From a bacterium (lineage in GTDB: Bacteria > Pseudomonadota > Alphaproteobacteria > Rhizobiales > Aestuariivirgaceae): a DNA stretch of 64,000 nt. The DNA is taken from assembly GCA_022842165.1 (NCBI GenBank), contig JALHQC010000006.1, positions 1-64,000 of the forward strand. Reading direction: 5' to 3'. Under the pieces are notes generated by a model. The model saw only the letters and a program-made list of their open reading frames with translations, ran no database searches and had not been told where the DNA came from. The position numbers and the translations under genes are program-made. Shown here piece after piece: positions 894-10,624 of the stretch (position 1 is the first letter of the stretch; each line of letters begins with the position of its first letter).

Positions 894-1844
894 TTACTCG
901 TCGCCCTTCGATTTGACGCCCTTGATACGGGCCTCGCGCAGATGCAGATCAAAGCTCGAGCCCTTGATATCCTCGGGCCGCGCCAGCCCGAAGGTGCGTT
1001 TCCGCAATTCCATGACGAGCTGCCCCCGATCCTCGATATGGGCGATCTCGTCGAAAGGGATGGGCTTGCCCACCCGCACCTTGAGGCGGGAACCGATCCG
1101 CCGCGCGGTTTCGCGGAAGACGAGCGACAGCCGCAGCGTCAGGCTCGTGTGGCTCGCCAATTGGAACAGCCGCGAATTCTGGCCGACGAAGAACACCGGA
1201 ACCACCGTTGCCTTCGACATCCGCAGCAGTTTCGCCGTGAACGGCGCCCAGGGCAGGTCGACGGCGGGGCCCTTGAGCGGCTTTTCCGAGGTCGAGACGC
1301 CGCCCCCCGGAAAGATGCCGATGGCGTGCCCGTTCTTCAGCCAGGCCTGGGCCTGAAGCCTTGAATTCACATTGGTCTCGCGGGCCTCGCGGGTCGGCGC
1401 GAAGGCGACGGGGAGGAGGTTCGCCGCGGCCTCCGGCGCCTGGCAGAGAACGTCGTTCGCCAGCACCTTGGTGTCGGGCCTGACCTTGGTTGCAAGCCAG
1501 GTGAGCGTGATCCCGTCCAGCACGCCGTAAGGGTGGTTGGCGATGAAGATGACGGGGCCAGCGGCAGGCGTTGCTGCAAGCGCCTCGACGTCATATTCCA
1601 CCCGCATCCGCAGCAGGCGGATTGCCGCGTCGAAGAAATTCTCGCCGCCCTTCACGCTTTTCTGGTGCTGGACATAAAGCTTCTTCAGCTTCCGCTGGCC
1701 GCCGAATCGTTCGATCGCCTGGATCACGGCGCGCTGCAGCGCCGGCTGGTCCGCCGTCGAATAGCTGAACCGCATTTTCTTGGGAGCCAGAAGGCTTGAG
1801 GGTTTGGGCATGTCCCGGCGGGCAATATCAGTCTCGATCACCAT
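894..1844 (-). CDS. PlsC-like lysophospholipid/ornithine-lipid acyltransferase (hemolysin-type)
   Basis: This 316-residue protein carries acyltransferase block I as NHPYGVLDG (about residues 103-111), with His104 and Asp110. This is the HX5D spacing of the OlsA/'putative hemolysin' branch rather than the classical HX4D. A later GIFPGGGVS block matches the FPEG-type motif that holds the phosphate of the acceptor. It would move an acyl chain to a lyso-lipid at the inner membrane. The MlaC-like gene downstream (48-bp gap) supports a role in membrane-lipid metabolism. ATG at 1844 was kept because it is the longest start; ATG at 1811 is an alternative, and neither has a strong ribosome-binding site. 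The substrate cannot be told. Confidence 0.8.
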   Translation of the reverse strand: MVIETDIARRDMPKPSSLLAPKKMRFSYSTADQPALQRAVIQAIERFGGQRKLKKLYVQHQKSVKGGENFFDAAIRLLRMRVEYDVEALAATPAAGPVIFIANHPYGVLDGITLTWLATKVRPDTKVLANDVLCQAPEAAANLLPVAFAPTREARETNVNSRLQAQAWLKNGHAIGIFPGGGVSTSEKPLKGPAVDLPWAPFTAKLLRMSKATVVPVFFVGQNSRLFQLASHTSLTLRLSLVFRETARRIGSRLKVRVGKPIPFDEIAHIEDRGQLVMELRKRTFGLARPEDIKGSSFDLHLREARIKGVKSKGDE

Positions 1845-7721: not shown

Positions 7722-8333
7722 ATGACCGATCCGTTCTCGCGCCGCATCCGCCGGCGCGACCTCGCAGGGCTTGCCGTTGCCCTGATGTTCGGCACTTCGG
7801 CTGCGGCACAGGCCGCGGTGTCGCCGGAAGATTATGTCGACTCGATCGCCAAAGAGGTCATGCGGCTTGCGAACACCGGGCAAAAGGGCCCGGGCCTCAA
7901 GTCGAAGTTTGCGGCACTGATGAACCGCTACATCAACATCAAGGGCATCGCGGACTACGCGCTGGGGCCTTACGCCAAGAAATTGCCGGGATCGAAGAAG
8001 GCAGAATTCTACAATCTTGTGAGCAATTATGCTGCGGCGCTCTTCGTCTATTATGTAGAGGATTTCCGCGGCAACGGCCTCGAAATCGCTTCGACTTCCA
8101 AGCAAGGGAAATTCACGGTGATCCAGAGCGCCATCATGCTCAAGGGTGGTGGCCGCGAGCAGGTGCGCTGGCGGCTGCTTCCGACAGGTGGAAGTTTCCG
8201 GGTGAATGACGTGAACATCAAGGGCGTGTGGCTGACGATTTCGATGAAGGACCGGTTCAGCAAGGTTCTGAAGAACTCGAAGGGCGATTTCGAACCCTTG
8301 TTTGCCGAACTTCGCGAAGCTGAAACCTGGTAA
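7722..8333 (+). CDS. MlaC/Ttg2D-like periplasmic phospholipid-binding protein
   Basis: This 203-residue protein has a signal peptide with an RRIRRRDLAGLAVAL start (twin-arginine-like) and cleavage after AQA near residue 32. The MlaC core follows: YINIKGIADYALGPYAKKLPGSKKAEFYNLV, then beta strands ending in GSFRVNDVNIKGVWLTISMKDRF. CAGGAGG precedes the ATG. It would bind a phospholipid tail or isoprenoid lipid in the periplasm and pass it to a transporter. The next gene (74-bp gap) is a second MlaC-like protein, followed by a RuBisCO-like protein and a cupin on the same strand. HpnM of hopanoid pathways is also an MlaC relative, so the ligand may not be a phospholipid. Confidence 0.85.
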   Translation: MTDPFSRRIRRRDLAGLAVALMFGTSAAAQAAVSPEDYVDSIAKEVMRLANTGQKGPGLKSKFAALMNRYINIKGIADYALGPYAKKLPGSKKAEFYNLVSNYAAALFVYYVEDFRGNGLEIASTSKQGKFTVIQSAIMLKGGGREQVRWRLLPTGGSFRVNDVNIKGVWLTISMKDRFSKVLKNSKGDFEPLFAELREAETW

Positions 8334-8407
8334 TGCTGGACGCGTTGTTGACGGGTGGCGAATCCCTCAACTAAAGCTCAGCGATGCCCCCGACTGGAAA
8401 GCGAATC

Positions 8408-8998
8408 ATGGTGGAACGTTCATCGCCCAAAACCGGCGGGTTGACGCGGCGAGCGTTGTTCAACAGCCTTGCCATGGCGTTCGTGACGCCGGCCTTCGCC
8501 GCCGAGCATCCTTCCGTTGCCTATATGAAGAAGGTGGCGAAAGACATGCTCAACGCCCACCGTCAGGGAACGGTTGCGAGCTTCAAGCGCGCTATCCAGC
8601 GCCATGCGGATGTGGCGTCAATCGCGGACTATTCGCTGGGTCAATACCGCTCGAAGCTGCCCGCCGGCCAGAAGGAGCGGTATTATGGCGGCGTCGCTAC
8701 CTTCATGGCACGCTACTTTGCCGATCAGTCGCGCGAGTATCCGATCGCCAAATATGAGATCGGCGAGGCCAAGGCGACCGAGGGCAAGGACGTTCAGATC
8801 AACACCAAGGTGTTCCTGCTGAACGGCCAGACCTATACGGTGGTGTTCAATCTCGGATGGAGCGGCGGACGCTACAAGGTGACGGACGTGAAAGTGCTCG
8901 GCTTCTCGCTCGTCTACCTCCAGCGCGGCATTTTCACCTCGTTCGTTTCGAAGCGTAACGGCAATGTCGGCGAACTGGTCGCTGCACTGAACCGTTGA
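8408..8998 (+). CDS. Second MlaC-like periplasmic lipid-binding protein of the tandem pair
   Basis: This is a 196-residue protein with a short signal (LTRRALFNSLAMAF up to FAA) and the MlaC pattern: HADVASIADYSLGQYRSKLPAGQKERYYGG, TYTVVFNLGWSGGRYKVTDVKVLGFSLVYLQR, SFVSKRNGNVGELV. ATG at 8408 has TGGAAAG ten bases before it and was preferred over ATG at 8384, which has no ribosome-binding site. It is clearly diverged from the copy at 7722, so this is an old duplication rather than a recent one. It lies 43 bp before the RuBisCO-like gene and is probably co-transcribed with it. Confidence 0.85.
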   Translation: MVERSSPKTGGLTRRALFNSLAMAFVTPAFAAEHPSVAYMKKVAKDMLNAHRQGTVASFKRAIQRHADVASIADYSLGQYRSKLPAGQKERYYGGVATFMARYFADQSREYPIAKYEIGEAKATEGKDVQINTKVFLLNGQTYTVVFNLGWSGGRYKVTDVKVLGFSLVYLQRGIFTSFVSKRNGNVGELVAALNR

Positions 8999-9041
8999 AG
9001 CCCGCTTGACGGCATCGGCGGCATGATGTTCATGTCCGTTC

Positions 9042-10190
9042 ATGACCAGTCCCCGTTTTCACGTCACGTACCGCATAACTCCCGATGATTCCCGTCCGAT
9101 CGAGGCGCATGCCAAGGACATCTGCATCGAGGAGACGGTGGAGATCCCTGAAGATTGCGTTCCTGCAGGCCATTGGAAGGCAGGAATCGTCGGCATCGTG
9201 GAGAACATTGCCGAGCGGCCCGGCACTCCCACCGATTATGATGTCCGCATCAGCTACCGCACCGACATTGCCAATGACGCGATCCCCAATCTGCTGAATG
9301 TTCTGTTCGGCAATATCTCGATCCGGCGGGGCATCAAGATCGTCGACCTGCAATTGACGGAAGCGCAACTGAAGGCATTTGGTGGCCCACGCTTCGGTAT
9401 CGATGGCTTGCGGCGCGATCTCAATGTCCATGGCCGCCCACTTGCCACCACCGCCATCAAGCCGCTGGGCCTGTCTTCAAAAGAACTGGCCAGGCTCTGC
9501 GGCGGCTATGCGCGGGGCGGCCTGGACGTCATCAAGGACGACCACGGCCTCATCGACCAGCATTTCCATCCCTTCGAGGAGCGCGTCTCGCGCATCCAGG
9601 AGGAAATCCGCGCCGCCAATGCGAAGACCGGTGGCATCACGCATTACTACCCGATGATTGCCGGCCGCTTCGACCAGGTCGAGGCCCATGTGGCCTACGC
9701 GAAATCTGCAGGCTGTTACGGCGTGCTGGTGCCGCCCATGCTGATCGGACCGGATACGGGCTTCCATCTGGCGCGCAAGTACGATCTCGCGGTGATGACG
9801 CACCCGACCTTCACGGGGACGCATTTCCACGATCCGCGCCATGGCATGACGCCGGCCATATTGCTCGGCAGGCTGTTCCGCATCTTTGGTGCCGATATCT
9901 CGGTTTTCCCGAACTCGGGTGGCCGATTCACCTTCAGCCACGAGGAATGCCAGGATCTCGCCAGTGCGTTGCGCGAGCCCCTCGGCGGCCTCAAGGGCTG
10001 CTTCCCGTCGCCTGCCGGCGGCATGACGATCGAGAAGGTCGGCGCCATGGTCGATGCTTTCGGCACCGACACCGCACTGCTCATCGGCGGTGCCTTGCTG
10101 CGGTATTCGCCAGACCCGGAAGTGAGCGCCCGCGCTTTCCGAACCGCACTCGAGGCCGCCGTGGCAGCACGCAAGGAAACCGTGCAATGA
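9042..10190 (+). CDS. RuBisCO-like protein (form IV)
   Basis: This 382-residue protein follows the RuBisCO large-subunit fold. Lys140 in TTAIKPLGLS matches the catalytic base Lys175 of true RuBisCO. GGLDVIKDDH matches the carbamate-lysine loop with Lys165 and Asp167 kept, but Glu204 is replaced by His168. The Lys177 and loop-6 Lys334 equivalents are missing (IKPL; FPNSGGRF). Phosphate-loop glycines remain (SPAGGM; LIGGALL). It cannot be a carboxylase. Form IV relatives act as enolases or isomerases in methylthioribulose metabolism, or on oxo-isoapionate phosphate. The overlapping cupin gene recalls the R. rubrum methylthioxylulose-phosphate route, so a methylthio-sugar phosphate is my favoured substrate, by inference only. 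Confidence 0.85.
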   Translation: MTSPRFHVTYRITPDDSRPIEAHAKDICIEETVEIPEDCVPAGHWKAGIVGIVENIAERPGTPTDYDVRISYRTDIANDAIPNLLNVLFGNISIRRGIKIVDLQLTEAQLKAFGGPRFGIDGLRRDLNVHGRPLATTAIKPLGLSSKELARLCGGYARGGLDVIKDDHGLIDQHFHPFEERVSRIQEEIRAANAKTGGITHYYPMIAGRFDQVEAHVAYAKSAGCYGVLVPPMLIGPDTGFHLARKYDLAVMTHPTFTGTHFHDPRHGMTPAILLGRLFRIFGADISVFPNSGGRFTFSHEECQDLASALREPLGGLKGCFPSPAGGMTIEKVGAMVDAFGTDTALLIGGALLRYSPDPEVSARAFRTALEAAVAARKETVQ

Positions 10191-10624
10191 GTACGGTTCG
10201 CAAGTTCCGGGACTTTGGGTGGGAGGATGTTCCTGTCCTCGCCTACAAGGAAGGTGGTCCCTACAAGGGCGTCACGCGGCAGGTGTTGTTCGAGGGCGAG
10301 GAGAGCCTTCCCGCACAGTGGCGCTATTTCGAGGTGGAACCCGGCGGGCACTCGACGCTCGAGCGTCACGCGCATATTCACTATGTGCTGATCCTCCGGG
10401 GCAGGGGGCGCTGCCTTGTGGGCGAGGACATCTCGGATATCGCCGAGCATGACCTGATCGAGGTGCCGAGCCTCAAATGGCATCAGTTCCGTGCGGCCGA
10501 GGATGCGCCGCTCGGCTTCCTCTGCCTCGTCTCCGCCACCCGCGACCGGCCGCAACTGCCAGCGGCGGAAGACCTTGCGGAGTTGAGCAGGAGCAGGGCA
10601 GTAGCTGATTTCGTGAGACCTTAG
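10187..10624 (+). CDS. Cupin-domain protein paired with the RuBisCO-like gene
   Basis: This 145-residue single-domain cupin has motif 1 GGHSTLERHAHIHYVLILRG (His55, Glu59, His61 and His63 as candidate metal ligands) and motif 2 HDLIEVPSLKWHQFRA (His99). Its ATG (10187) overlaps the RuBisCO-like stop as ATGA, so both are made together. In Rhodospirillum rubrum a cupin encoded near the RuBisCO-like gene removes methanethiol from methylthioxylulose-5-phosphate. This protein resembles that one in length and in the QWRYFEV-PGG-STLERH segment as I remember it. A 6-bp hairpin (GAGACC-TTA-GGTCTC, 10615-10629) covers its stop codon. Confidence 0.8.
   Translation: MSTVRKFRDFGWEDVPVLAYKEGGPYKGVTRQVLFEGEESLPAQWRYFEVEPGGHSTLERHAHIHYVLILRGRGRCLVGEDISDIAEHDLIEVPSLKWHQFRAAEDAPLGFLCLVSATRDRPQLPAAEDLAELSRSRAVADFVRP

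Follow-up and report, generated by a model that had tools for sequence, protein, structure and literature searches.

A RuBisCO-like protein–cupin pair, probably of the MTA-isoprenoid shunt kind, behind two MlaC-family genes in an Aestuariivirgaceae genome

Introduction

Two genes for MlaC-family exported proteins, a gene for a RuBisCO-like protein (RLP), and a cupin gene follow one another on the same strand in the window (the whole 64,000-nucleotide stretch analysed, from contig JALHQC010000006.1 of assembly GCA_022842165.1; the genome is designated G000 below). Does this order represent one lipid-related operon, or did an RLP-cupin pair with a task of its own come to lie behind unrelated MlaC genes? 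No description of the order MlaC–MlaC–RLP–cupin was found in a literature search on MlaC with RuBisCO-like protein, in which the sources were available in part.

Results

Layout of the locus

The coordinates and open reading frames agreed with the earlier note: four same-strand genes were separated by gaps of 74 and 43 bases (with the MlaC_B start at 8408; a longer alternative start was possible at 8384), and the RLP and cupin genes overlapped by four bases (Table 1). The 3' flank of the RLP-cupin pair was a convergent cytochrome c gene. The gene order recurred in one further genome, that of a second species (G034), in which all four open reading frames were intact; the dN/dS values against G034 (Nei-Gojobori) were 0.125 for MlaC_A, 0.190 for MlaC_B, 0.092 for the RLP, and 0.075 for the cupin. 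The spacer between MlaC_B and the RLP was 43 bases here and 47 bases in G034, and a consensus scan called no promoter or terminator within it (8999-9041). A block containing TTGACG was common to both genomes at equal distance to the RLP start codon, and it had no good second hexamer. A foreign origin judged by base composition was considered and rejected, the RLP (62.0% G+C) and cupin (63.4% G+C) genes being not outstanding.

Table 1. Features of the locus (window positions) and transketolase-linked RLP loci (locus positions)
Feature	Position	Strand	Evidence
MlaC_A, MlaC-family exported protein, 203 aa	7722..8333	+	Pfam MlaC 73.5 bits; HpnM model 32 bits
MlaC_B, second MlaC-family exported protein	8408..8998	+	Pfam MlaC 70.6 bits; HpnM model 42.6 bits
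RLP, likely 5-methylthioribulose-1-phosphate isomerase, 382 aa	9042..10190	+	Pfam, 3qfw identity, residues, tree
Cupin, likely 1-methylthioxylulose-5-phosphate methylsulfurylase, 145 aa	10187..10624	+	57% identity to 3jzv (Rru_A2000, the assayed R. rubrum enzyme) and to 3kgz; tree
TTGACG, -35-like hexamer in spacer, weak candidate RLP promoter	9006..9011	+	Block common to G034
Transketolase-linked RLP loci	L114:1638-7116, L132:49-4894, L156:921-6264, L040:7936-17478		
Transketolase-linked RLP loci	L108:4036-7915, L112:4033-7034, L127:3684-7110		

Identity of the RLP and the cupin

The RLP passed the Pfam model RuBisCO_large (PF00016; 96.3 bits, cut-off 30.1), and its best match among solved structures was 3qfw (E 2e-77), to the matched part of which it was 42.5% identical; this part of 3qfw was in turn 78, 70, and 69% identical to the RLPs of three Rhodopseudomonas genomes. 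Comparison with seven RuBisCO large subunits confirmed the active-site reading of the earlier note, namely Lys140, Lys165, Asp167, and His168 with the loop-6 Lys missing: the RLP carried KDDH instead of RuBisCO's KDDE, and this motif together with the absent loop-6 Lys was displayed by nine of nine further RLPs of this group and by none of the seven RuBisCO large subunits, while the genome's own OiaX carried KDDE. The odd His and the missing Lys are thus traits common to the whole RLP group and not peculiar here, and the Glu-to-His replacement, shared by all nine compared RLPs, was dropped as a special feature. Judged from its sequence, the RLP has the catalytic domain of a RuBisCO large subunit but lacks part of the RuBisCO active site. 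Catalytic-site residues conserved at 95% or more, both among the 22 RLPs of the window clade and among 45 further cupin-linked ones (counts that omit the four outlying cupin-linked rows L109, L110, L116, and L152), included K140, K165, D166, D167, H168, H254, R280, and R295.

The cupin passed Pfam Cupin_2 (39.7 bits, cut-off 27.2), and its residues E59, H61, H63, H65, and H99 were at least 90% conserved both in the window clade and in the other group; the mark of the methylsulfurylase, a conserved-motif cupin encoded beside the RLP, was therefore found at this locus. The NCBIfam search gave no equivalog for either the window RLP or the cupin.

Predicted pathway

According to the consulted part of PMC5893883, Rhodopseudomonas palustris RLP1 isomerises 5-methylthioribulose-1-phosphate and its cupin acts as methylsulfurylase, and Rhodospirillum rubrum Rru_A1998 and Rru_A2000 carry out the same two steps, isomerase and methylsulfurylase, according to that of PMC4958253. 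The window pair shared with R. palustris RPA2169/RPA2170 and R. rubrum Rru_A1998/Rru_A2000 (i) the order RLP then cupin, (ii) KDDH without the loop-6 Lys, (iii) the cupin motif residues, and (iv) mtnP plus mtnA in the genome, but it differed from them in several respects: the RLP was about 40% identical to this assayed group and the cupin 57%, a separate 22-row clade was formed, a six-residue stretch near 260-265, absent from the canonical cupin-linked clade, was kept in the window RLP, and the unit sat behind an MlaC pair. The matches to 3qfw and Rru_A2000 bear out the likeness, drawn in the earlier note, to the pair that turns methylthioribulose phosphate into an isoprenoid precursor.

MtnP (296.8 bits), MtnA (415.1 bits), O-acetylhomoserine sulfhydrylase (627.4 bits), and mtnK were all found over their cut-offs in the window genome, with mtnK and a sugar-type ABC transporter located next to mtnA. 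In the predicted pathway, 5-methylthioribulose-1-phosphate would arise from methylthioadenosine via MtnP and MtnA, or from methylthioribose via MtnK and MtnA; the RLP would convert it to 1-methylthioxylulose-5-phosphate, from which the cupin would release methanethiol, leaving 1-deoxyxylulose-5-phosphate (DXP); and O-acetylhomoserine sulfhydrylase would turn the methanethiol into methionine. The RLP and cupin thus appear to belong to a known enzyme kind, the MTA-isoprenoid shunt pair, as new members of it. Very probably they make up a two-gene methionine-salvage unit of this kind that has landed behind neighbouring MlaC genes.

Clade and distribution of the pair

A contig scan gave 137 RLP relatives, the best 80 of which were kept. 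A cupin gene lay directly behind the RLP gene in 70 of these best 80 of 137 loci, with estimated gaps of -7 to 162 bases; among the 10 loci without a following cupin, L136, L156, and L159 ended at most 311 bases past the RLP. Two quick trees, one of RLPs and one of cupins, recovered the window clade as the same group of 22 rows (SH-aLRT 100 and 99), L136, which is cut by a contig end, being excluded from the RLP tree. This clade stood beside the Rhodopseudomonas-containing clade, with the R. rubrum RLP outside the tree set; the deep order of the RLP tree was unsure because the outgroup branches were very long (RuBisCO and OiaX rows, with one RuBisCO row among the RLPs), and root and deep order were not used. 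The window clade would fall within DeepYkr, a name that comes from PMC5893883 (consulted in part). The neighbours of the pair varied between host groups at the loci looked at, so the pair behaves as a portable two-gene unit, which would move as a pair between unrelated genome sites.

The well separated clade and its extra stretch near the active site would also fit an action on a related substrate, for example a ribulose phosphate that is 5-deoxy or otherwise substituted at C5, rather than mainly on the methylthio compound. This is improbable: the conserved residues compared, cupin motif included, were identical in both clades, and mtnA, mtnP, and mtnK were all present in the window genome.

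The MlaC genes and their genus context

Both upstream proteins passed Pfam MlaC (PF05494, cut-off 26), and neither reached the HpnM equivalog cut-off of 160.1 (scores in Table 1). Among solved structures, they gave weak matches with MlaC and Toluene-tolerance chains. The Pfam search found three MlaC-family genes in the window genome and no more. The third, at 258-845 on the minus strand, was separated from the MlaC pair by some 7 kb and was adjoined by an acyltransferase-like gene (894-1844, minus strand) with weak, below-cut-off OlsF and GlsA matches; several genus genomes likewise had a third MlaC-family gene a few kb from the pair.

MlaC_B was matched in all 37 genus genomes (G000-G036). 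Among the 30 genus loci read, MlaC_A adjoined MlaC_B in every one, and a divergent ArsR-methyltransferase gene was present in 29. RLP and cupin followed the MlaC pair in two of the 30 (window genome and G034), the other 28 had the pair without RLP-cupin, and in 10 MlaC_B was directly followed by the cytochrome c gene that borders the unit in the window genome. A close RLP (79% identity or more) was present in three of the 37 genus genomes, namely the window genome, G034, and G004; in G004, whose RLP locus is L088, the RLP-cupin pair and the MlaC pair were located on different contigs (C14 and C15, respectively). When a genus-MlaC profile was applied to the best 80 of the 137 RLP loci, MlaC was found near the RLP at one of them (L086, the G034 locus) and not at L039 or L041, and MlaC was absent from the flanks of all 78 of these loci outside G034 and G004; the search reached no further than 6 kb to either side, and less far where contigs were small.

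The RLP-cupin unit most likely landed behind genus-core MlaC genes. The insertion site common to the window genome and G034 supports a single entry, which would have occurred before these two genomes parted, although the genus tree does not settle whether they are sisters; gain of the unit is preferred to repeated loss. With the unit set down between the genus-core MlaC pair and the convergent cytochrome c gene, the MlaC genes are best regarded as its neighbours and not its partners, and they would have no part in the salvage unit.

The earlier note had suggested instead that the four genes form one functional operon whose DXP feeds an isoprenoid lipid carried by the MlaC proteins. The common strand, the short gaps, the order kept in a second species, and the lack of a called terminator between MlaC_B and the RLP all fit that proposal. 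It is nonetheless highly improbable, given that the MlaC pair lacked RLP-cupin at 28 of the 30 genus loci read and that RLP-cupin occurred away from MlaC in G004 and, within the flanks searched, at the 78 other loci. Isoprenoids of every kind, thiamine, and vitamin B6 are all made from DXP, and this broad use gives it no special tie to one lipid carrier.

Other RuBisCO-like families

Hardly any credence attaches to the RLP being an enzyme of apiose breakdown or, in universal methionine salvage, an MtnW-type enolase (2,3-diketo-5-methylthiopentyl-1-phosphate enolase): it shared with MtnW the form IV RLP fold, a link to methionine salvage, and its best NCBIfam score (196.8 bits), but this score and the 144.7 bits on the second MtnW model were below the cut-offs (409 and 513.6, respectively), the OiaX model gave 77.6 bits against a cut-off of 700, the KDDH motif has His for the metal-binding Glu, a cupin partner was present, and a true OiaX was encoded elsewhere in the genome. 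The model score and the separate OiaX speak against an apiose enzyme, the identity that the earlier note had named as grounds for doubt. The true OiaX (776.2 bits, over cut-off) was located at L004:6665-9270 on contig C15 of the window genome; beside it was an OiaK-like kinase gene below cut-off, and a trimethylamine monooxygenase gene was near.

RLPs linked to a transketolase pair

A split transketolase pair preceded the RLP in seven of the 84 RLP loci scanned (Table 1), L039 and L088 among the 84 being the same place. The two partners did not co-occur: the seven transketolase-linked loci were all without a cupin match, and the 70 cupin-bearing loci were all without a transketolase pair. The hosts of the seven belonged to Pseudomonadota, Deinococcota, Chloroflexota, and Myxococcota; mtnK plus mtnA were found in four of these loci and mtnP in one. 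1-Methylthioxylulose-5-phosphate differs from xylulose-5-phosphate by the methylthio group on its C1, so its cleavage by a transketolase-type enzyme, with expulsion of methanethiol, is conceivable. The transketolase-linked RLPs perhaps represent a variant of methionine salvage, so far undescribed, that has a transketolase-type enzyme in the cupin's place; the literature searched, including PMC7895386 and consulted in part, yielded no description of a transketolase-based methionine-salvage route, and the word transketolase is absent from PMC6302742.

The source of DXP

The three genus genomes with the unit (G000, G034, and G004) contained low-scoring relatives only of dxs, the gene for the enzyme that usually supplies DXP (TIGR00204; cut-off 466 bits, highest score 89, E up to 0.001), and the window genome was 99% complete. 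Across the genus, dxs was found in 23 of the 37 genomes and not found in 14 (G007 being counted as dxs-less despite a 183-bit partial match), while standard dxr (TIGR00243) and HMG-CoA reductase were each found in none of the 37. In the close relatives G001, G011, G018, and G026, dxs had tRNA-Asn and tRNA-Cys on its two sides and PCM and TolC genes in its vicinity, and G029 had dxs in the same tRNA setting, followed up to the contig end. G034 had tRNA-Asn and tRNA-Cys without dxs between them; in the window genome, the part with tRNA-Cys, PCM, and TolC was present and dxs was absent there. G010 and G005 were also without dxs at the tRNA site; G005 has dxs elsewhere, so an empty site alone is no proof of dxs loss. 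A decayed dxs remnant lay between tRNA-Asn and tRNA-Cys in G031 (L194:4187-4623), a genome without RLP-cupin.

Eleven dxs-less genus genomes were without RLP-cupin (their completeness ranged from 66 to 100% and was at least 96% in four), and the tree relatives of G004, i.e., G007, G012, and G032, were all dxs-less. Outside the genus, dxs was present in all 19 genomes with a window-clade RLP (as pieces on two contigs in G062, G066, and G069, those of G062 being singly below cut-off) and in 20 of 21 genomes with other RLPs (20 cupin-linked, plus the transketolase-linked L114). L115 (Caldilineaceae), an RLP-cupin genome, gave a dxs match of 166 bits only. The idea that RLP-cupin accounts for the loss of dxs within the genus was rejected: dxs was lacking in three of three genomes with the unit and in 11 of 34 without it (hypergeometric p 0.047, kinship ignored), and the genus tree offers too few independent pairs for a kinship-aware test.

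The consulted part of PMC10663253 raises the possibility that in five species the shunt takes the place of Dxs. For the present genomes it is unlikely that RLP-cupin replaces a lost DXP synthase and thereby ties the supply of isoprenoids, or at any rate that of thiamine and vitamin B6, to methylthioadenosine recycling or methylthioribose import.

Discussion

The unusual gene order of this locus most likely marks a landing site rather than a new lipid operon. The window clade is a second RLP-cupin clade, and the shunt literature consulted (in part) yielded no assay of its members. The genomes named here would allow a direct test of whether the shunt substitutes for DXP synthase, the question raised in the part of PMC10663253 that was consulted.
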